Origin: an uncultured Selenomonadaceae bacterium
GTDB lineage: Bacteria > Bacillota > Negativicutes > Selenomonadales > Selenomonadaceae
Assembly: GCA_902778455.1 (NCBI GenBank)
Contig: CACYXR010000009.1
Coordinates: forward strand, 62,001-126,000
Direction: 5' to 3'
Length of the DNA stretch: 64,000 nt
In this document: positions 10,055 to 43,806 of the stretch, one piece after another
How the letters are laid out: each line of letters opens with the position of its first letter
Position numbering within the stretch: the stretch's first letter is position 1
The notes under the pieces: generated by a model
Told to the model about the DNA's origin: nothing
Database searches by the model: none
What the model saw: only the letters and a program-made list of their open reading frames with translations
Made by a program: the position numbers and the translations under genes

Positions 10055-11329
10055 TCAAAACTCCTGTCGGACGCCGACATAGGTCGCCCTTCGGTCGCCG
10101 TCGTTGACGTCGTCCACCTGTCCGAATATGTAGGTGCTTTTTGCGACGCGGACGCTGGCTCTCGGCCGCAGACGGATATTGTTCAGGTCGTAAGCGTCGA
10201 GGGAGAAACGCCAGTATTTTCCAGCGTCGGCGTCAAGACCGAGGCCGACCTCGCCGTCGATAATGCCTGCCCTCGCCGTCAGCGCCCCCATTCTGGTGCC
10301 TGCCTGCAGGTTGAAACGGTTGCCTTCGCCGATGTCGTTGACGCCGATCTTGAACATGCTTTTCTCCGACAGGTTCGCCGTCACGTCAAAATTCGCGCGC
10401 CAGTTGCTTTCCTGCCCGCTGTACATGACCTCGAGGCCGGGAGTGATCGCGCCGCCGCCGAGGCCGCTCATCATCTTGTCCGCTTTTTCCGTAACCTCGC
10501 GAGTGTTGTGCAGAACCGCCTTCAAATCCTCCGCAGTCTGTGGATCGGTCACGACACCTTCGAGGCTTTTCGCCATATTGTCGATACGCGCGCTGGTAGA
10601 CGCAATATTCGCCACTGTCGTACGAAGATTCGCCGCCGCCTCACCGTCGCCGGAGAAATCCTTGACCATCCCCTCAACTTCCCGCGCCGCACTGGAAAGA
10701 CTTACGGACAGCATGGACAGTTCATGCACCATGCGGTTGATTTCTCCCTCATTATGCACGGCCATCCGGGAAAACGCTCCGGTCATATCGCGCACATTGC
10801 CCGTGATGTCCTTCAGATTCACAGCAGTGGCGACGAGAGAGGAGTTCAGTTCAGGATTGTTGATGACGGCGTTGATACCGTTCATCATTTCATGGGCCTG
10901 CTCGATCAGCACCGTCATTTTTGCCATCATCGTGTCCATGGATTCTTCCGGAGTCCCCGCCACGCGATCGCCGCTTTCCAGATATGCGCCGACGTCTCTC
11001 GCCGGCAGAATGTTGATGTATTTTTCCCCGAGGAAGCCGCTGGCGCTGACCGTAATTTTCGAAGCGTGGGGAATGCGGATGTCTTCGTTGACCGCCATCG
11101 TAACGAGGATGTGCATACCCTCGGCCTCGACGTTCAGCACCTTGCCCGCGGGCACGCCCGCGAAACGAACCTCCGCCGCCGGATTCAGACCGATGACTTC
11201 GGGAAACGTCGCGTAAAGCGTATACTGGCTCGGGCCGAACAACGTGACGCCGGAAAGCCCGACCAGCATGGCCGCCAAAAGCGCCAAACCGCATACGGTA
11301 AACGCGCCAACCTTTACTTCATTTGACAT
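10055..11329 (-). CDS. mlaD: MlaD-type lipid-transport protein with C-terminal beta-barrel
   Basis: A 424-residue envelope protein. Residues 7-29 form a membrane anchor and about 35-115 an MCE domain (YATFPEVIGLNPAAEVRFAG, pore-loop region GFLGEKYINI). A long helical region (about 120-265) follows, then a beta-rich C-terminus ending in aromatic GVRQEF, as in outer-membrane barrels. E. coli MlaD stops after the MCE domain; the long fused form that spans the envelope is known from Veillonella, a diderm Firmicute. It takes phospholipid between membranes with MlaE and MlaF. ATG 11329 follows GGAGGAAGGG. A 214-bp MITE separates it from mlaF. Confidence 0.88.
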   Translation of the reverse strand: MSNEVKVGAFTVCGLALLAAMLVGLSGVTLFGPSQYTLYATFPEVIGLNPAAEVRFAGVPAGKVLNVEAEGMHILVTMAVNEDIRIPHASKITVSASGFLGEKYINILPARDVGAYLESGDRVAGTPEESMDTMMAKMTVLIEQAHEMMNGINAVINNPELNSSLVATAVNLKDITGNVRDMTGAFSRMAVHNEGEINRMVHELSMLSVSLSSAAREVEGMVKDFSGDGEAAANLRTTVANIASTSARIDNMAKSLEGVVTDPQTAEDLKAVLHNTREVTEKADKMMSGLGGGAITPGLEVMYSGQESNWRANFDVTANLSEKSMFKIGVNDIGEGNRFNLQAGTRMGALTARAGIIDGEVGLGLDADAGKYWRFSLDAYDLNNIRLRPRASVRVAKSTYIFGQVDDVNDGDRRATYVGVRQEF

Positions 11330-35893: not shown

Positions 35894-35970
35894 TGAAAAT
35901 AACAGAAAACCCCGCCTTACTGTGGGCATGAAATAAGGATCTTATCAAAAAATCGATAATCTCCGAGCGA

Positions 35971-36005
35971 AAGAGCCATGCAGGTTCCTGCATGGCTCTT
36001 ATTTT
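35971..36005 (+). terminator. Terminator of metQ
   Basis: A perfect 14-bp stem (AAGAGCCATGCAGG and complement) with a two-base loop, then TATTTTAT. Confidence 0.85.
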
Positions 36006-36019
36006 ATAATTGAACGCCG

Positions 36020-36177
36020 AAAAAAAGCATTCCACGATGCAGAGGAGGGCAGGCGTTCTGCACCTACTACTGCCGAAACTCCTTCGGCAGAGGGAATGCT
36101 TAATATGATGCACTGGTATCTCCCAGAACTGAATCCTCAAATGAGGCCAACATCTCCCCGGTCGTCAGTGCATCTAT
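36020..36177 (-). ncRNA. Structured small RNA A, unknown family
   Basis: A complete transcription unit on the minus strand with no ORF. The promoter is TTGTCT (36207-36212), 17 bases, TAAACT (36184-36189). A first domain is closed by GATGCACTG/CAGTGCATC, with an inner CCTCA/TGAGG hairpin. A second domain is closed by AGCATTCC/GGAATGCT, which with its T-run is also the terminator (36020-36033); it contains a CTGCCGAA-GGAG-TTTCGGCAG hairpin. It shares ACGACCGG, ATTCAG, GGGAG and AGTAGGT blocks in order with RNA B next to it. Five GGA motifs, at least one in a loop, raise a CsrA-sponge possibility. Family unknown. Confidence 0.6.
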
Positions 36178-36183
36178 GACAAA

Positions 36184-36212
36184 AGTTTATCACAGTATCA
36201 GGAAATAGACAA
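36184..36212 (-). promoter_or_regulatory. Promoter of small RNA A
   Basis: Minus-strand TTGTCT, 17-base spacer, TAAACT, about 7 bases before the predicted RNA start. Confidence 0.55.
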
Positions 36213-36231
36213 GAAAACGGCAATCATCTTA

Positions 36232-36373
36232 AAACAAAAAGAAGCACCGCTGGATATGGGTAAGCCGTAAGATTCGACCTACTCCAACGATACTTCCCTT
36301 GAAGGCCTCCCCGGATGCTGAATGCAAAATCCCCCAGCTTAAACGTCCAAAACGACTCCGGTCGTCTGCCTTC
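36232..36373 (-). ncRNA. Structured small RNA B, unknown family, similar to RNA A
   Basis: A second transcription unit directly upstream of RNA A. The promoter is TTGTTG (36404-36409), 18 bases, TATACT (36380-36385) with an extended TG. The first domain is closed by TGAAGGC/GGCCTTCA and has an ACGAC-CGGA-GTCGT hairpin. The second is a 14-bp stem (36241-36254 with 36283-36296) followed by TTTTTG. The order of ACGACCGG, ATTCAGC, GGGGAG and AGTAGGTC matches RNA A although the stems differ, so the two look like paralogues with compensating changes. No ORF. Confidence 0.6.
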
Positions 36374-36379
36374 ACCCAA

Positions 36380-36409
36380 AGTATAGCACAGGATTAACAA
36401 GAACAACAA
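36380..36409 (-). promoter_or_regulatory. Promoter of small RNA B
   Basis: Minus-strand TTGTTG, 18-base spacer and TATACT preceded by TGTGC. Confidence 0.55.
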
Positions 36410-36466
36410 GACCATTATGTGAAAATAATCCAGTATATTTAGCTGTGACACTTAATTGTGAGTATT

Positions 36467-38083
36467 TTATTTTGCCCACCAACAATCTTTTCCTTTTATT
36501 GTTTTACCGCCATCCTTTTTGAAAGTGAAATAGAAACCTAATTTACGCGCTTCCTCTACTACCGGTTTTAATTCGACACCGCCAAGAATCCACAATGCGC
36601 CTTTGAATGGGCGCTTGTCCACATACTTAATATTGTAATTCTTGAGCAAGGCAATGATATCCTCCTCTTTTAGCGTTTCGTTTTCAAATCCCGGCAGTCC
36701 CGTCTGAACAGTGGTTGTAGTTTTTTGTGGTTGTGTAACATGCGTTGGAAATTCAGGTTTGAGATTATCTTTTTCCTCTACATCCGTGCGGCAGTTTCCC
36801 ATAAGTTCATTGAGCTGTGCATCAGGAATGTTACACTTTGACTCGTCTTCGCCTAGCTGCGCTTGGTCATCGTCATCATCGTAGTCGTCGAGAGACGCTT
36901 CTGCCAAAATTTCTTTTACTTCATCCGCAGTTAGGTCTAAGTCGTCAAACTCAATATCTTCTTCCGTGTCAGTATCGCTATCAGTGTTATAATAATCATA
37001 ACGCTCGTCGTCGGTGGGTTCTGAATACGTGTCTTGTGTGGGAAAAAGATTTTGTTCTAATGTTTCTTCTTGTGAAGGCAAACGCACAATATCTTCATTG
37101 TCTTGCACGTTTTTACTGTTGGCGAGAGACAAAATTTCCTTCATACCCCACAGTTCAAGCGTTATCATTCCAGCGGCATTTAGTTGTTTTGCATATTCTT
37201 TTGCATTATCGTTGTATGGGCAAGTTGCAATAAAAATAGCGCGTTTTACATTTGCACCGACGGCAGAACCGACTAATTTCTGGACGAGTTCCCGACCAAT
37301 AGAGGATTCGTTGCGCCAATGTTTACATTCAATATAGTATGTTTCTCCATCTTTTTGGGCAATAATATCTTTGCCACCATCATTCGTCGAGGCAGTAGTA
37401 TATGCTTTATAGCCATTTAAGTTCAGCATATAGGCAATCCATTCTTCAAATGCTCTCCAATCCATAGAACGGACAAAGAATTCGTTATTTTTAAAATCAC
37501 CTATTTCTTTAGGCTTCTTTATCTCTTTTTTTATTTCGATTGCTTTATCAAGTATAAGGCGATTTATTATTTCCGCAACTGCACCTGAAGAAATGCCTAA
37601 ATTGATATTCGAAATAGGGCGCCCATTTTTCTTAATAATGCCACCGACATTGGAATTAAAATTTAGACGAAAAACAGTAGTATCCATTCTTCTTACATAT
37701 AATTCGTCTAATTGGCACGAATACGTTGTTATATCAAATACGTTTGTCTGATGCCCATATTCTTGAATTGAAGATTTATCATAAATTTTAAACGCACAAT
37801 AACAAGGCCCACTAGAAAGTCTATAAAATCTAAAACAGGGGAATGATCTTGTAATGTCGTATTCAATGCTATTTACTTCACTAGAATAATCATAATTTAT
37901 ATGATTCGATATAATTGCCAACAATTGATCTTCTGTTGACGGTAGATTATTTTCAGAACGGGCGGATAATCGACTGAGGGCGAAGTTATTTGCCTTTATG
38001 GTATCTTTTTTTTCGGGCCATATTCTCTCTATAAGCCAAATAAACGGAGATAACACTATAGCAATCGCTCCAAACATTAACAT
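36467..38083 (-). CDS. Membrane-anchored Mrr-type restriction endonuclease-like protein
   Basis: A 538-residue ORF. An N-terminal hydrophobic segment (2-21) is followed by an unassigned domain (50-200) and an Mrr_cat nuclease domain (about 205-310) with the PD-(D/E)xK core: Glu 213, Asp 239 in GGKD, Glu 252 and Lys 254 in IECKHW, Gln 268. A very acidic linker (about 355-420) leads to a C-terminal domain (465-538; KYVDKRPFKGALWILGG) resembling one appended to other bacterial DNA-processing proteins. The first ATG lacks a ribosome site. An upstream ATG at 38145 after AGGAGGGAAAGG is out of frame by one base at an A6 run (38113-38118); joining them completes the membrane segment. AT-rich compared with the core genome. 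Likely defence function. Confidence 0.75.
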   Translation of the reverse strand: MLMFGAIAIVLSPFIWLIERIWPEKKDTIKANNFALSRLSARSENNLPSTEDQLLAIISNHINYDYSSEVNSIEYDITRSFPCFRFYRLSSGPCYCAFKIYDKSSIQEYGHQTNVFDITTYSCQLDELYVRRMDTTVFRLNFNSNVGGIIKKNGRPISNINLGISSGAVAEIINRLILDKAIEIKKEIKKPKEIGDFKNNEFFVRSMDWRAFEEWIAYMLNLNGYKAYTTASTNDGGKDIIAQKDGETYYIECKHWRNESSIGRELVQKLVGSAVGANVKRAIFIATCPYNDNAKEYAKQLNAAGMITLELWGMKEILSLANSKNVQDNEDIVRLPSQEETLEQNLFPTQDTYSEPTDDERYDYYNTDSDTDTEEDIEFDDLDLTADEVKEILAEASLDDYDDDDDQAQLGEDESKCNIPDAQLNELMGNCRTDVEEKDNLKPEFPTHVTQPQKTTTTVQTGLPGFENETLKEEDIIALLKNYNIKYVDKRPFKGALWILGGVELKPVVEEARKLGFYFTFKKDGGKTIKGKDCWWAK

Positions 38084-38109
38084 TACAGGCGCACAAAATA
38101 TTGCAACTA

Positions 38110-38145
38110 TTATTTTTTAATGCCTACCAATATATCTTCAACCAT
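38110..38145 (-). pseudogene. Probable true 5' end of the Mrr gene, separated by a frameshift
   Basis: ATG at 38145 with a strong AGGAGG-type site opens MVEDILVGIKK and then stops. A one-base shift back at the A6 run gives KIIVAIFCAPVMLMFG, which continues into the main ORF and forms a complete transmembrane start. Either the run has lost one A or the shift is programmed. Confidence 0.5.
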
Positions 38146-38407
38146 AACCTTTCCCTCCTTTCTTGGACTGATAATAGCATAAAGTAGAAAGCGATAGGTC
38201 GCTTTGGAAGAGACATTTCTATTTTCCACCTTTCGCTCTGGAAGCGTCCTCCTTTGCTTTGGATTGTCTTATGATAGAAAAGACAATCCAACAAGGATGG
38301 AAAAAAGAACGAATAGGTGAAACGACGGAACTTTAAAGGAAATATTTATGTTGTGTCGAATTGATAAACAAAATCTATTATGATACATGAATGGGGGAAT
38401 CATGACC
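38146..38407. other. Intergenic region with two hairpins, start of the HTH gene leader
   Basis: It contains AAAGCGA-TAGG-TCGCTTT (about 38190) and a strong GGATTGTCTT/AAAAGACAATCC hairpin at 38262-38291 between the divergent Mrr and HTH-like genes. No gene seen. The hairpins may be transcriptional signals or operators. Confidence 0.45.
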
Positions 38408-38890
38408 ATGAATGAAACCTTGCTTACACAGATTGAAGCGTATATAGAAGAAAATTATTCTGAGCCAGTAAAATATTCTATCAACCTCAGTCATGAGACC
38501 TGGACTGACCGATTGAAGAATCGAATAGAATCCTTTGTTGACAACAAAAAAGAAGATTCCTTTGCTGAACATCTATGGAAACTGATTCTAGAAAAAGGGA
38601 AAGACGATGTTGAGGTCTATAAGAAAGCGCATCTGGATCGGCGCCTGTTCTCGAAAATCAGAACGGACAAGGGTTACAAGCCAAGCAAAAGTACTGCTGT
38701 GGCTTTGGCTATTGCATTGGAATTGGAGTACACAGAAACGCAAGATTTGTTGCAACGCGCGGGCTATTACTTATCAGTGAGTTCGAAGGAAGATCTTATC
38801 ATTCGATATTTTATCGAGCATCAACAATATGACATTTTTTTAATCAATGAAGTTCTGTATCACTACGGGTTCAAGCCGTTAAGGGATTGA
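38408..38890 (+). CDS. HTH-like accessory protein
   Basis: A 160-residue soluble protein starting MNETLLTQIEAYIEENYSEP. The C-terminal two thirds (HLWKLILEKGKDDVEVYKKAHLDRRLFSKI...) is an all-helical domain with the KPSKSTAVALAIALELEYTETQDLLQRAGY block typical of a family of small proteins in Firmicutes, found alone or appended to macrodomain proteins and looking like an XRE-type HTH. GGGGGAA lies 8 bases before the chosen start; two earlier in-frame ATGs exist. The protein at 41941-42168 has a similar first 20 residues. It is inside the accessory island. Confidence 0.6.
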   Translation: MNETLLTQIEAYIEENYSEPVKYSINLSHETWTDRLKNRIESFVDNKKEDSFAEHLWKLILEKGKDDVEVYKKAHLDRRLFSKIRTDKGYKPSKSTAVALAIALELEYTETQDLLQRAGYYLSVSSKEDLIIRYFIEHQQYDIFLINEVLYHYGFKPLRD

Positions 38891-38963
38891 AAAAGCTACA
38901 TTTGCTTCATATGTTTTTTCCATACTGCCACCTCTTATCTCAAGTGCTCGACATCCCCATCTT

Positions 38964-39878
38964 TTATTCGTCAGGTTCCCGCGTCCAGAGTAGTTTACAA
39001 CTTGCCAATCGACGGTCTCGATCTGGGGATTGAGTTCCCTTTTGTACGTTTTCGGGACTATCTCCCGACTGTTTCAGTTGCTCCTGATTCCATGGATACC
39101 AGAACACAGGATGGAACCACTCCTTATTTCTGCTGAGTAATATTTCATTAATCCGTCCTTCATCATCGGTCTTAAATAAAACATACATAACAATATCATG
39201 CGGCTTTTCATAATAGCCTAATTCCAGAAACCACTCATTGTACCCTTGTTCTTGTAATTCCCGGTTATCGTAGTCAATTCTGTATAAATAATTTCCGTTT
39301 TCCTTCTGATCATAACTCCTATCCAATAGTTTGTATTTCAATACTTTCAGCACTTCTTCGCGCCCAGAATATACCTTCGGATTGAAATCAGACTTCAGAA
39401 TACACAAACTGCTGAGATTCTCCGCTAAATAATTAAATCTAAGCTCGTCCGACCATACCGTGAATACATTGCCGATATAATATGCCAACCTTCTGCTTTC
39501 CATCCATTGTATGATTTTATCCACTTCAGTATAGTATTGCTTTTTTTCAAAGGCAAACAGTACATCCGGATCTCTATATTCACAATTCTGGATGAAATCA
39601 TACCAAATAACAAAATGCTCTGTTTCATCGATATGAACTTCTGTGTCACAGCACCCCACACATCCGCAGCAACACACACGTATATTGACTGGCTCGTCTT
39701 TTAGGGCATATACTCTCATCAAGCTTGTATATAACTCAGACGGCCACAAAGGCAAGCTACAAGAAATGATATCACTAAGTTCTTTACCATCAATATAGAT
39801 TTCAACTACATCCGTAGGTTCCTTATCTGGACCAAAAGTATGAGCCGAAAGCTTAAAACCGATTATGTTGACCTTCAT
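38964..39878 (-). CDS. Unknown protein with a Cys-rich CCCGCxGCC motif
   Basis: A 304-residue soluble protein. Residues 1-65 have a beta-rich part (EIYIDGKELSDII). A cysteine-rich motif (VCCCGCVGCC, about 68-77) is followed by VIWYDFIQ; this order resembles a widespread family of uncharacterised proteins with C-x-C-G-x-x-G-C then V-x-W-x-x-F. The rest is mixed and tyrosine-rich. GGAGAGGTGG precedes the ATG. It lies at the left end of the small-gene run and on the same strand, so might be part of that unit. Function unknown; immunity-type roles are only a guess. Confidence 0.5.
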   Translation of the reverse strand: MKVNIIGFKLSAHTFGPDKEPTDVVEIYIDGKELSDIISCSLPLWPSELYTSLMRVYALKDEPVNIRVCCCGCVGCCDTEVHIDETEHFVIWYDFIQNCEYRDPDVLFAFEKKQYYTEVDKIIQWMESRRLAYYIGNVFTVWSDELRFNYLAENLSSLCILKSDFNPKVYSGREEVLKVLKYKLLDRSYDQKENGNYLYRIDYDNRELQEQGYNEWFLELGYYEKPHDIVMYVLFKTDDEGRINEILLSRNKEWFHPVFWYPWNQEQLKQSGDSPENVQKGTQSPDRDRRLASCKLLWTREPDE

Positions 39879-39990
39879 GAAAAACCACCTCTCCAGAGAT
39901 ATCAGTCTTTCTCCTACTCATAGTTCTTGAACTAATCCTCACTCGCATCCGTATTTTTAATTCTATGGATATACTCGTCCTTCTCACATT

Positions 39991-40404
39991 TCACCCATCT
40001 CCTTCTTGCGACTTCGCATCTCTGTCCATTAAAAAATCCATATCCTCTTTACTCAGTTTCCAACAGTCACCTTCTAAAAGATTGCGCCAAGCGGCTTCCC
40101 TTTCCGAGTCTGTCTTTGCTTCTTGCAGATCGTACCATTTCTCCTCGGTCTTGGGAGCAATGTTGCAGCCTTTATTATCTTTTTCCTTAACCTCCGTAAC
40201 GCTTGATTCTCCTTGGAACTCCTTATTCTCCTCGGACATACCGCTATTCTCCTTTAATGCGATTTTCCCAGCTTCATCTGCCAGCCTCTCCGCTTCTTCC
40301 CTGCTGATACCTGGAAGGAATTTTGGCGTCAGTCGAATATGCTCTTCCCTGTCCTTTGTCGTAATCCACCGGAAAAATTCATCTTTCTCTGATTCGCTCA
40401 TCAT
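39991..40404 (-). CDS. Small acidic island protein 1 (137 residues)
   Basis: A soluble, Glu- and Lys-rich helical protein without signal peptide. The segment WITTKDREEHIRLTPKFLPG followed by SREEAERLADEA is shared with the next two genes. Its C-terminal LQEAKTDSEREAAW recalls LQEAKTIEEVKAIL in the gene at 41581. AGGAGGTG precedes the ATG pair at 40404. No known family. Last gene of the tandem run on the minus strand. Confidence 0.5.
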   Translation of the reverse strand: MMSESEKDEFFRWITTKDREEHIRLTPKFLPGISREEAERLADEAGKIALKENSGMSEENKEFQGESSVTEVKEKDNKGCNIAPKTEEKWYDLQEAKTDSEREAAWRNLLEGDCWKLSKEDMDFLMDRDAKSQEGDG

Positions 40405-40462
40405 TTTCAAAGCACCTCCTTGTCTTTAAAACTCTATAGAATGTGAGCCCTCCATTAGCTTA

Positions 40463-40624
40463 TTATTTATCCTCATTGATTGACCCGAGCACTCTGTCTG
40501 TTACTTCTTCTGCTTCTTCTCTCGTCATTTCTGGCGATAACTGCATAACTAAATTTATTGCTTCTTCTCTGTCTGTAGTGCTTACCAGCCTACACATCAA
40601 ATCCAGCTCTTGTTCTTTCGTCAT
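40463..40624 (-). CDS. Small acidic island protein 2 (53 residues)
   Basis: MTKEQELDLMCRLVSTTDRE opens a 53-residue protein with STTDREEAINLVMQL and TREEAEEVTDRV, clearly like the core of the neighbouring 137-residue protein. The 5' end overlaps the gene at 40590 by 35 bases, which supports coupled translation. Function unknown. Confidence 0.5.
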   Translation of the reverse strand: MTKEQELDLMCRLVSTTDREEAINLVMQLSPEMTREEAEEVTDRVLGSINEDK

Positions 40625-40781
40625 TGTCCCCGTTCACGCTCTCCTTGTATGATTTCTCGAATTCCTGTATTAGAAACTCCGTCGTTGTTTTTGGGAAAAG
40701 TTTCTTCCCAATTTCCACAAACTCCTGAAGGTCATCCGTCATAGCCCACTTGAAAATTAAACCACTTTTCGATTCGTTCAT
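40590..40781 (-). CDS. Small acidic island protein 3 (63 residues)
   Basis: MNESKSGLIFKWAMTDDLQE opens a short helical protein. KWAMTDDLQEFVEIGKKLFPKT aligns in pattern with the WITTKDREEHIRLTPKFLPG segment of the 137-residue protein. No family. Start-site signal is modest. Confidence 0.45.
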   Translation of the reverse strand: MNESKSGLIFKWAMTDDLQEFVEIGKKLFPKTTTEFLIQEFEKSYKESVNGDNDERTRAGFDV

Positions 40782-40832
40782 TTATTTTCCCCTTCTTGTA
40801 TCTCAGCGATGCTAGAAGCTGAGCGCAGTTTT

Positions 40833-41111
40833 TTATTCAACTCTCTTTCTTGCTGTGGTGACAATTCTTTTTTCTCGCCCATACGGGCAGTCCTCCTCCG
40901 CTTCTTTGATAGATATTTCCGCCGATCGGTTCAAGGCTTCCTCTGTCGGGATCGTCAAGTCTAATATTACATCTAACGCCGCTTGTGATACTTCCTTGCT
41001 TTCCTTGCGCTTCTTCTCTACCCATTCTATCCACTCGTCCGCCGTCATTTTTCCTGACGCTAACATTCTCATTTCTTCCTCAGTGATTCCGTTTTCTATA
41101 TTTCCTGACAT
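40833..41111 (-). CDS. Small acidic island protein 4 (92 residues)
   Basis: MSGNIENGITEEEMRMLASG opens the protein; the ITEEEMRMLASGKMTADEWI segment matches LTPEEMLEILSGEVSPEEMI of the gene at 41180, so these two are paralogues. The C-terminus is basic. AAAGGGGCGG lies before the ATG. Unknown function. Confidence 0.5.
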   Translation of the reverse strand: MSGNIENGITEEEMRMLASGKMTADEWIEWVEKKRKESKEVSQAALDVILDLTIPTEEALNRSAEISIKEAEEDCPYGREKRIVTTARKRVE

Positions 41112-41179
41112 TACTGCCGCCCCTTTCTTTCGTTCCAGTTTAACAATGCACCTAAAAAATGCATGCGGTCAGCCTATTG

Positions 41180-41353
41180 TCAATTTCCGTTCTCCTTTTC
41201 AGCCTCCTTCTCCCAACGTCTGATCATTTCCTCCGGTGATACTTCCCCTGATAGAATTTCCAACATTTCCTCTGGCGTTAAAACGCTTCCTTTTTCGTCT
41301 TTCACTTTCTTCGGCTCGTTCTGATCTTCCGGTATAGGCTTTTTCTTTTTCAT
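41180..41353 (-). CDS. Small acidic island protein 5 (57 residues)
   Basis: MKKKKPIPEDQNEPKKVKDE opens a 57-residue protein with LTPEEMLEILSGEVSPEEMI, the paralogous core of the previous entry. AGGAGG lies 9 bases before ATG 41353; a longer frame to 41431 would start at a poor site that overlaps the upstream gene's stop. Confidence 0.5.
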   Translation of the reverse strand: MKKKKPIPEDQNEPKKVKDEKGSVLTPEEMLEILSGEVSPEEMIRRWEKEAEKENGN

Positions 41354-41420
41354 CTTTCCATTCCTCCTGATGTAATCTCTGGACAAATCTGTACCCCTAT
41401 ATTTCTGATTCGCTGCTGAT

Positions 41421-41570
41421 TTAGTTGTCATCCTCGTCCATTTCTTCTTCCTCGAGTTTTTCAGCGAAGTGCATTTCAGGCATCAAGGCGTCAAGCCATT
41501 CAACAAACTGTTCCCACGAGGAGGATATGCATTGGAACCATATATAGTTCGAGTCTTTTTCCATCTTCAT
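41421..41570 (-). CDS. Small acidic island protein 6 (49 residues)
   Basis: A very short acidic protein opening MKMEKDSNYIWFQCISSSWE and ending in a Glu/Asp-rich tail. The ATG at 41570 lies 10 bases downstream of the stop of the gene at 41581, with GAGGGGCG as ribosome site. The core WEQFVEWLDALMPEM has the same W-x-x-x-V-x-W character as the 92-residue protein. Function unknown; a weaker call because of length. Confidence 0.4.
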   Translation of the reverse strand: MKMEKDSNYIWFQCISSSWEQFVEWLDALMPEMHFAEKLEEEEMDEDDN

Positions 41571-41580
41571 CCATCGCCCC

Positions 41581-41934
41581 TCAAAGCGGTTTTTCTTTCA
41601 TATCGCGTTGCAACCTTTCCATTTCTTCGTCAATCTTGTATGCCTCATCCCAACGGGCGTCCTCTTGTTGCGGATCGTCACAAAGAACCGCTTTAATAAG
41701 CGTGTCTGCATATTGTTCTTCCAAGTGAATCATCAACTCATCACAACTCATTTCGCTTTTCTGTTGTTTGAAATCATCCGTTTCCTCCGTTAAATCAGGA
41801 AGGTTCCAGAATTTCGGAGCCTCTTTGATATCCTCCTCCGTCAAATCCGGGTCTGTTCTTAAAATTGCCTTGACCTCCTCGATGGTCTTCGCTTCTTGCA
41901 ATTTCATTGCCCGCTCAAAAATTTTGTCGTCCAT
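41581..41934 (-). CDS. Small acidic island protein 7 (117 residues)
   Basis: MDDKIFERAMKLQEAKTIEE opens a 117-residue, strongly acidic helical protein; TDPDLTEEDIKEAPKFW is a further conserved-looking block. The C-terminus is Glu/Arg-rich. AAGGAGG precedes the ATG, at the end of the preceding gene. No family recognised. The largest intact member after protein 1. Confidence 0.5.
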   Translation of the reverse strand: MDDKIFERAMKLQEAKTIEEVKAILRTDPDLTEEDIKEAPKFWNLPDLTEETDDFKQQKSEMSCDELMIHLEEQYADTLIKAVLCDDPQQEDARWDEAYKIDEEMERLQRDMKEKPL

Positions 41935-41940
41935 GAGAAA

Positions 41941-42168
41941 TCAATCCTCCTTCCACTGACTTCTCTCATTTTCCGTCCTTCGTAGGCTGCTGTCGCCTCG
42001 AAGATGTATTTTTCTTCTAATTCCCAAGTTTTCGCCATCCGTTCTTCTTTGTTGTCCATCATCAAATGTCTTCTCAATTCGTGAACTCATTGGGTGGTCT
42101 ATTCGTTGAGGCTCGATGTAGTTGTCATTGAGATATTTCTCTATCTTTGCCAGTAGTTCCTTATCCAT
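41941..42168 (-). CDS. Small island protein 8 (75 residues), similar N-terminus to the HTH-like protein
   Basis: MDKELLAKIEKYLNDNYIEP is the same pattern as MNETLLTQIEAYIEENYSEP in the gene at 38408. After about 30 residues the similarity is lost; a one-base shift gives MDNKEERMAKTWELEEKY, which looks more like the continuation in the intact protein, so this may be a frameshifted remnant. AGAGGTGG precedes the ATG. First gene of the run on the minus strand. Confidence 0.45.
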   Translation of the reverse strand: MDKELLAKIEKYLNDNYIEPQRIDHPMSSRIEKTFDDGQQRRTDGENLGIRRKIHLRGDSSLRRTENERSQWKED

Positions 42169-42248
42169 AAATCTCCACCTCTGAACTAAAACTTCCATAT
42201 CACTGCTTTAGTCAGATTATATACGAACGAAAAACAAAAAAGGTCGCT

Positions 42249-42872
42249 TTGAAAGCGACAAATGAAATAAGCAAAGCATGGCTGGACGTTCGCGCCTTCG
42301 GACAGTTGTTTGCGTTCAAGGGAGGAAAAGGGAGCGATGACGAGGGCAATACGGACGGCGTTTCCATCGGAGTCAGAGGACCGGTCTCCGTCCATACGGC
42401 GGTCAGCGTCGATCCAATCAATGCTTCCAGTATGCAGATTACCAAGAGCGTAAACGGCGAGCCTACCAAAGACGGAAAGAAAAGCAGCGATACGATGGGA
42501 ATGAAGCATCGCGTGGATTTCGGCGTATATAAGATGCAGGGCAGTATCAACGTACAGTTAGCCGAAAAGACCGGCCTCAGCGAGGAAGACGCAGAGCATA
42601 TCAAGAACGCCTTGGTCACTTTGTTTGAAAACGACGTATCGTCCGCACGGCCGGAAGGAAGCGTGGAAATGACAGAGTTTTATTGGATCGTGCATCCGAA
42701 CAAGTCGGGAAAAGTTGCGTCGGCAAAAATCCATCGCAGTGTAAAAGCCCAAAAGAAAGAAGGGGTATCTCGTGCGCGGGAATTGGCGGACTATAACTTC
42801 GACGACAGCGAATTGAAAAGCATCGATGGCCTGAAGATTGAGCATTATCGCGAGGGTGAATTGGTTTCGTGA
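42249..42872 (+). pseudogene. cas7: cas7 (csd2) of type I-C CRISPR-Cas, 5'-truncated
   Basis: The 207-residue frame is the C-terminal two thirds of Csd2/Cas7, the backbone subunit of the type I-C Cascade that binds crRNA. Recognisable blocks are WLDVRAFGQLFAF, GVRGPVSVHTAVSVDP, QITKSVNGE, DTMGMKHRVDFGVY, SARPEGS and the end GLKIEHYREGELV. Intact relatives have about 95 further residues at the front (a RAMP-like fold start). No start codon with a ribosome site is present; only TTG 42249 opens the frame. cas3, cas5, cas8, cas4, cas1 and cas2 are absent, so the system is dead. The island's small genes abut its broken 5' end. Confidence 0.85.
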
Positions 42873-42923
42873 GATTGACAATATGCACGGAAAGGTTGAA
42901 TGACAAGGGGTCTTTTTGCCCCC

Positions 42924-42956
42924 GTCGCCCTCCGCATGGAGGGCGTGGATTGAAAT
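42924..42956 (+). CRISPR. Solitary type I-C CRISPR repeat
   Basis: A 33-base repeat with the type I-C form: GTCGCCCTCC, GGAGGGCG stem partner and GTGGATTGAAAT end. It is 51 bases downstream of the cas7 remnant and in the expected orientation. No second repeat is found in the window. The base after it is the first base of the recombinase-derived sequence. Confidence 0.85.
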
Positions 42957-43751
42957 ATCAGCTTCCTGATTGTCGAGAATACGCACGAAGCCATCATTGA
43001 CAAAGACACGTTTGACATTGTTCAGCGCATCCGAGACGGAAGACGGCGGTTGACTCCCCTTGGAGAGCCGAATATGCTTTCGGGTATGCTGTACTGCGAG
43101 GATTGCTGCAAGAAACTGTACCAAGTTCGGACGAGATGCCTCAAACCCGGCCACGAATATTTTGTCTGTTCGTCATATCGTATGAAGCGGCGCGGATGCA
43201 CGGCGCATTCGATTCGCAACGTGGTAATCGAGAAAATCCTGCTGAAAGAGATTCAAAGGATTGTCTCTTATACGCGCACGAAAGAGAAAGAGTTCGTTGA
43301 GCTGGTCATGAACAAGTCCAAGGCGGAACTGGCCAAGGCCTTGCGCGAATCCAGAAAAGAGCTTGACAAAGCCCAAGAGCGGCTAAAGAAGATAGACGCT
43401 ATCTTCAAGAAGCTTTACGAAGACAACGCGGACGGCAAACTCAGCGATGAACAGTTTGCTAAAATGTTAGCGAGCTATGAGTCGGAACAGGATGAATTGA
43501 AAAGCCGTTCGGAGGAACTCAAAGCGGTCATTGCGCAGAACAACGCCAGCGCGGAGGACGCCAATCGGTTCATTTCCAAAGTGCGGAAGCACAACGACAT
43601 TAAGGAACTCAGCGCTGGGTTGATCCGTGAGTTTGTGGAAAAGATTTACGTATCTGAGAAGCAAGTAGTTGACGGTAAAAAGGTGCAAAAAATAAGAATC
43701 CTGTGGAACTTTATCGGAGAATTCACTCCACCCACAGGATTCAAGGGTTAA
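42957..43751 (+). pseudogene. Large serine recombinase, 3' fragment
   Basis: A 264-codon frame that opens immediately after the CRISPR repeat (ISFLIVENTHEAIIDKDTFD), with a stop codon inside the repeat upstream. It includes the end of the Recombinase domain, a zinc ribbon (CEDCCKKLY, C-x-x-C-x-x-C-like with later CS and GC), a long coiled coil (about 120-210) and a C-terminal DUF4368-like end. The N-terminal catalytic Ser-recombinase domain is missing, so it cannot act. It is a remnant of an integrative element. AT-rich bias ends near 43750. Confidence 0.85.
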
Positions 43752-43806
43752 AAATGATCTTTATTGCGCATTGACTACGGCGGGGTTTTCTGTTGGAAGG
43801 AATTCC

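Follow-up and report, generated by a model that had tools for sequence, protein, structure and literature searches.

Two small RNA units on the minus strand of the window (the whole stretch of 64,000 nucleotides analysed here, from an uncultured Selenomonadaceae bacterium) belong, as judged from their sequences and predicted folds, to an undescribed RNA family without a match in Rfam. Unit B is very probably a member of this family and unit A is probably one. Other copies are linked to the domain LPD3 of mobile-element genes, and the sequence data make it very likely that these LPD3-linked copies are antisense RNA genes.

Structure of units A and B

Unit A (36236-36373, minus strand) is about 138 nt long and unit B (36020-36177, minus strand) about 158 nt; the ends were inferred, for unit A from the -10 and the U-run. 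Each unit is preceded directly by a -10 motif and ends in an intrinsic terminator. By direct reading, the promoter of unit A is the extended -10 TGTGCTATACT (36380-36390, minus strand), and that of unit B is TTGTCT-17-TAAACT with TGTG before the -10 (36184-36212, minus strand). The motif TGTGNTATANT of the unit A promoter is also present upstream of most relatives. The promoter scanner flagged neither promoter. The sequence-only reading had described the units as twin, related and structured small RNAs, each with its own promoter and terminator. This description stands, the extended -10s and the U-runs being readable in the sequence and the promoters and terminators being predictions.

The ordered blocks ACGACCGG, ATTCAG, GGGAG and AGTAGGT, on which that reading had relied, are present in both units. 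As a spaced pattern, they occur at two places of the own genome (A and B) and at none in 189 genomes of the same family or 300 genomes of the same class. Five viral matches to the motif pattern look like chance matches in coding sequence and were discarded. The local alignment of A with B reaches z = 4.6 against dinucleotide shuffles, and 6.3 with the promoters added, and none of 1000 shuffles scores as high.

The folding energy is -58.2 kcal/mol for unit A (z = -4.8 against dinucleotide shuffles) and -60.4 kcal/mol for unit B (z = -3.1, same reference). The two-domain shape noticed earlier was recovered: domain 1 is composed of a closing stem with an inner stem P2, and domain 2 of a GUAGGU hairpin enclosed by a terminator stem. 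Domain 1 of unit A (36300-36374, minus strand), a divergent family member, displays the closing stem TGAAGGC/GCCTTCA and the P2 CCGG/CCGG; its domain 2 (36236-36296, minus strand) contains the terminator stem GAAGTATCGTTGG/CCAGCGGTGCTTC around the GUAGGU hairpin, followed by a U-run. In unit B, domain 1 (36107-36174, minus strand) is a clear family member with the closing stem GATGCACTG/CAGTGCATC, P2, and the P3 CCTC-ATTT-GAGG, and in domain 2 (36020-36101, minus strand) the terminator stem AAGCATTCC/GGAATGCTT encloses two hairpins and is followed by a U-run. The U-run thus follows domain 2 and not domain 1 in both units. Pairing was said to persist despite changes in the stems, and indeed 12 of the 26 pairs compared between A and B differ on both sides with pairing preserved, in an alignment that was fitted to structure. 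A separate terminator-like hairpin of 13 pairs, AAGAGCCATGCAGG/CCTGCATGGCTCTT (35971-36000), is located between unit B and the left end of the island described below.

The idea that A and B sequester CsrA/RsmA fared less well. The gene csrA is present in the genome, and the units contain 6 and 5 GGA motifs, one of them in a hairpin loop, which recalls the several GGA motifs and the two sibling RNAs of CsrA sponges of the CsrB/RsmY type. However, as counts alone, these motifs are barely enriched (6 against 2.9 expected, p 0.046, and 5 against 2.5, p 0.085), and the sole good GGA loop, CCGAA-GGAG-TTTCGG, lies in domain 2 of unit B, a domain without relatives, whereas the relatives are tied to LPD3. 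A function of A and B as CsrA sponges is thus extremely improbable.

Detection of relatives and covariation

An Rfam scan (Rfam 15) assigned A and B to no family at the gathering threshold, in agreement with the earlier remark that no Rfam family was known to match; the matches with E<=5 are unrelated and all far below gathering. The scan of the whole window returned 6S RNA only (RF00013, 7842-8021, minus strand, 75 bits), and the scan of the loci of seven relatives returned only the end of a group II intron. With blastn, the 441-bp region had no match in 40 relatives, phages or plasmids. An integron attC site was considered and rejected, no GTTRRRY/RYYYAAC ends being seen by eye.

The covariance search suggested in the sequence-only reading was run with models from A and B, and it recovered about 30 strong relatives. 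The model R1, from the hand-made alignment of A and B, was used to scan 189 genomes. Its only clear match was G012 (35.6 bits, E 1.9e-5), with G156 as a weak one, and both were matched in domain 1 only. Beside the match in G156, another unit was seen that shares the promoter motif, which makes a tandem pair in this genome too. The model R2, from five domain-1 sequences, gave about 20 strong matches in the 189 family genomes. Finally, R3, from 28 sequences, gave about 30 strong matches in 380 genomes of the class, nearly all from the same family, plus one genome (G258) of another family. With R3, domain 1 of unit B scored 65.2 bits, B being part of the training set. Domain 1 of unit A, which is without the AGAUAC strand, scored 25.6 bits (E 8.4e-5 in the window), a weak value for a sequence that is itself in the training set. 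The positions 10205-10288 of the window reached 17 bits with R3 and have no U-run; this match was taken as chance.

For domain 2 of either unit, the loci compared contain no relative. Two domains in a row are found in G125 and G155 (13 nt apart) and, further apart, in G156 and G075; as several relatives display it, the twin or two-domain arrangement appears as a theme of the family.

Across the 28 sequences, two-sided changes are seen in every one of the 15 base pairs of domain 1, and 95% of the cells are paired. This level of covariation was reached in 0 of 500 shuffles and was destroyed by sliding the partners. The alignment was fitted to the model, so the counts lean toward structure; given the size of the effect and the agreement with RNAalifold, the conclusion is considered as safe. 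The covariation of all 15 pairs upholds the earlier claim of a selected RNA structure.

Antisense position behind LPD3

Most relatives are located on the strand opposite to a long open frame that belongs to a "polyvalent" gene of a mobile element. The element starts about 30 nt behind LPD3 (PF18798 in Pfam). Three LPD3 loci that were retrieved through protein similarity and had no part in R2 (L092, L102 and L103) contain the RNA at the same place. In L112 and L103 the peptide frame is broken and the RNA is intact. Three LPD3-linked loci (L065, L066 and L081) have an extra hairpin, GGAAG-loop-CTTCC, inserted in frame between the -10 and domain 1.

The constraint on the codons was measured in 13 aligned LPD3 genes, by counting identical codons at identical residues. 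The share of identical codons is 47% within LPD3, 76% within the hairpin and 51-60% farther on. In the alignment columns 200-209, which contain the codons opposite the antisense -10, this share rises to 99% (166 of 168). Under the -10, isoleucine is encoded by ATA in all listed genes, a codon used for 29% of the isoleucines in the same frames. This pattern indicates selection on the nucleotides, in the antisense direction. A coding-only explanation of the relatives is ruled out by this codon test together with a synonymous reshuffling, in which, for 25 positive in-frame cases, the observed score was reached 0.28 times in total.

Extension to other LPD3 genes

LPD3 genes beyond the reach of the RNA model have, at the same place and on the same strand, a strong promoter followed by a long hairpin and a U-run of unrelated sequence. 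Several of these promoters are near-perfect (TTGACA-17-TATACT or TATAGT). A detector of an antisense promoter followed by a hairpin and a U-run was positive for 39 of 48 LPD3 genes against 25 of the 248 antisense windows taken elsewhere in these loci, values to be read with the fact that the detector was devised after examples had been seen and that the 48 genes are not all independent. The background was 0 of 48 in sense windows and 1.9% of the tiles of the window. The viral loci L147-L149 had been retrieved with a peptide pattern, part of which coincides with the promoter codons. Units A and B themselves fail the detector because their terminator is in domain 2.

Among LPD3 genes from outside the class, two of three score (L150 and L151). 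Six further LPD3 loci were examined later; five of the six are without a detector match, and two of these five have a unit by eye. The Burkholderia phage BgManors32 has a detector match and a Helicobacter prophage has a similar unit by eye; an Ochrobactrum phage and two Lessievirus giant genes do not score. In the viral contig L171, the antisense strand behind LPD3 reads TTGACA-17-TATATT, then a short hairpin and a T-run; this unit is shorter than the minimum span of the detector and was therefore missed.

The same copies could be seen as a palindromic element that has no function as an RNA in its own right, namely a dispersed (bidirectional) terminator or insulator hairpin that is tolerated as a linker behind LPD3. 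Such an element would account for the promoter-less copies found directly behind a murD stop codon in G146 (L080, 1501-1571) and G091 (L141, 1501-1564), for the copies present in the 3' UTR of a short LPD3 gene in G003 and G153, and for the symmetrical ends AAAAGA...TCTTTT. The gene ahead of the element in G146 and G091 was named from its sequence and is presumably murD. At this site, the hairpin is of type a in one genome and of type b in the other, which suggests independent insertion or exchange of elements. Palindromic elements of Rickettsia are tolerated within genes, and the family shares with them, and with MITE/REP-like hairpins, palindromes located both inside reading frames and between genes. 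It differs from them by its conserved directional promoter and U-run and by the location of most copies behind LPD3. The near-total codon identity under the antisense promoter, the near-perfect promoters ahead of unrelated hairpins and the absence of any unit in the 48 sense windows also speak against a palindrome without RNA function, which we regard as rather unlikely.

The LPD3 protein

LPD3 is treated as a polyvalent domain in the literature (PMC5512222), and the terms noncoding, antisense and small RNA are absent from that article. A literature search found neither a report of such LPD3-linked RNAs nor an assigned function of LPD3. A first structure model of LPD3 was too poor (pTM 0.36), and a second one was usable (pTM 0.72). 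The leading matches of this model in the PDB include the CdiA-CT toxin chains of 6cp9 (Foldseek probability 0.90-0.98, E 0.01-0.04), an entry which we take to be a BECR-fold tRNase. Chain A of 6cp9 is in the top rows of Foldseek (probability 0.98, E 0.019) and is the first match in VIA with Z 3.8, where Z < 8 can be chance. In the same VIA list, the MqsR/MqsA complex 3hi2 is third and the nsp15 endoribonuclease is lower. A PDB profile search with LPD3 had no match. These scores, which are within the chance range, give a hint that LPD3 may be RNase-like.

The structured RNA could also bind a protein, for example the LPD3 domain itself, in the manner of a type III antitoxin and not by base pairing. 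The persistence of structure, and not of sequence, across the family would fit such binding, as would the possible resemblance of LPD3 to the BECR tRNase toxins, and type III (ToxI-like) systems likewise associate structured, sometimes tandem RNA units with a possible RNase. However, the RNA of the family is antisense and downstream of its gene, whereas the type III repeats are upstream, in the same orientation and the same operon. Binding of this kind is very unlikely.

Genomic context of units A and B

The units are part of an accessory island of about 7.85 kb (7.9 kb when rounded; 35927-43777) whose insertion site is the loop of the metQ terminator. In the closest relative (G001, locus L005), the site is empty: an EAL gene directly follows metQ, and the flanks are 95-96% identical. 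The two halves of the terminator are AACAGAAAACCCCGCC on the left of the insert and GGCGGGGTTTTCTGTT on the right; the split is exactly in the loop, as if the terminator hairpin served as attachment site. Besides A and B, the cargo contains a gene for a Mrr-type nuclease, a Cas7 fragment and, at the right end, a C-terminal piece of recombinase (all identified with Pfam), the latter with the zinc-ribbon and DUF4368 domains found in large serine recombinases. The Cas7 fragment (42249-42872) has 207 aa and covers the positions 83-247 of the profile PF05107; no further cas gene was noticed in the stretch examined. The Mrr-type gene (36467-38083, minus strand) is on the same strand as unit A and directly upstream of it. 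A tie between the units and this gene was considered and rejected, R1 having no match in the nine loci of Mrr homologues searched. The sequence-only reading had placed the pair at the border of the core genome and the island. The pair does adjoin this border, but the empty site of G001 shows that it sits inside the island, at the left end. From the insertion in the metQ terminator and this empty site, we infer that the island is an integrated and partly decayed element, with A and B as cargo at its left end.

No LPD3 match was found in the own genome (G000), so A and B are orphans and do not have the antisense position behind LPD3; an RNA antisense to its partner gene, as in type I toxin-antitoxin systems, is found in the LPD3-linked relatives and not in A and B. 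Other orphan copies without LPD3 are present in G156 and G043. No long perfect pairing with the LPD3 genes seen was detected for A and B, which are too diverged; only a block of 18 nt of unit B matches G012.

The two units could also be decaying relics, that is two copies of an antisense RNA gene left by a former LPD3 mobile element and out of use. The lack of LPD3 in the genome and the decayed aspect of the island, with its fragment of Cas7 and its piece of recombinase, agree with such an origin, as does the opposite strand of unit B, which reads DALVSPRTESSNEANISPVVSAS, like the LPD3 linkers, until the frame is lost. Nevertheless, neither unit has lost its -10 or its terminator, the closing stems are intact and differ between A and B in a compensatory manner, and we consider that they are unlikely to be mere relics.

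Proposed mechanism and significance

The explanation that we put forward, with somewhat less than even confidence, is that the LPD3-linked antisense RNAs restrain LPD3 polyvalent proteins and that A and B are orphans which act in trans against incoming elements or are relics. The RNA gene, located on the opposite strand just behind the LPD3 coding region and composed of its own promoter, one or two hairpin domains and an intrinsic terminator, would be transcribed, and the RNA would pair with the LPD3 mRNA, to which its overlapping position makes it perfectly complementary. This pairing would lower the LPD3 output by a block of translation or by recruitment of RNase III, LPD3 being perhaps an RNase-like domain that needs restraint. 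A and B, released from the partner gene and with a second, terminator domain added, would either target incoming LPD3 elements in trans or persist as relics. The regulatory role of the RNA on the LPD3 gene is proposed tentatively.

The strength of the promoter fits such a role, and a compact hairpin that ends in a terminator resembles the antisense RNAs of plasmids and of type I toxin-antitoxin pairs. Like the latter, the family consists of short structured RNAs that lie opposite a gene of a mobile element and have a promoter and an intrinsic terminator of their own. It differs from them because its partner is either a domain in a giant polyvalent gene or else a short LPD3 gene, and not a small membrane toxin, and because the partner gene is missing from the window. 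In a wider and more speculative form, which we think improbable at present, the LPD3 domains of phages and conjugative elements would generally have a nested antisense RNA as antidote or switch, with its structure written in the linker codons, and the free twins would neutralise incoming LPD3 on the side of the host or of the island.

Phages and conjugative elements count polyvalent proteins among their largest weapons. An antisense RNA gene behind LPD3 would give a direct handle on the action of this domain and on its timing, and would reveal an overlapping RNA gene as a force that can shape the protein linkers of such giant genes. Whether bacteria or resident islands retain such RNAs as an immunity against incoming elements is a question that the orphan twins open to testing.
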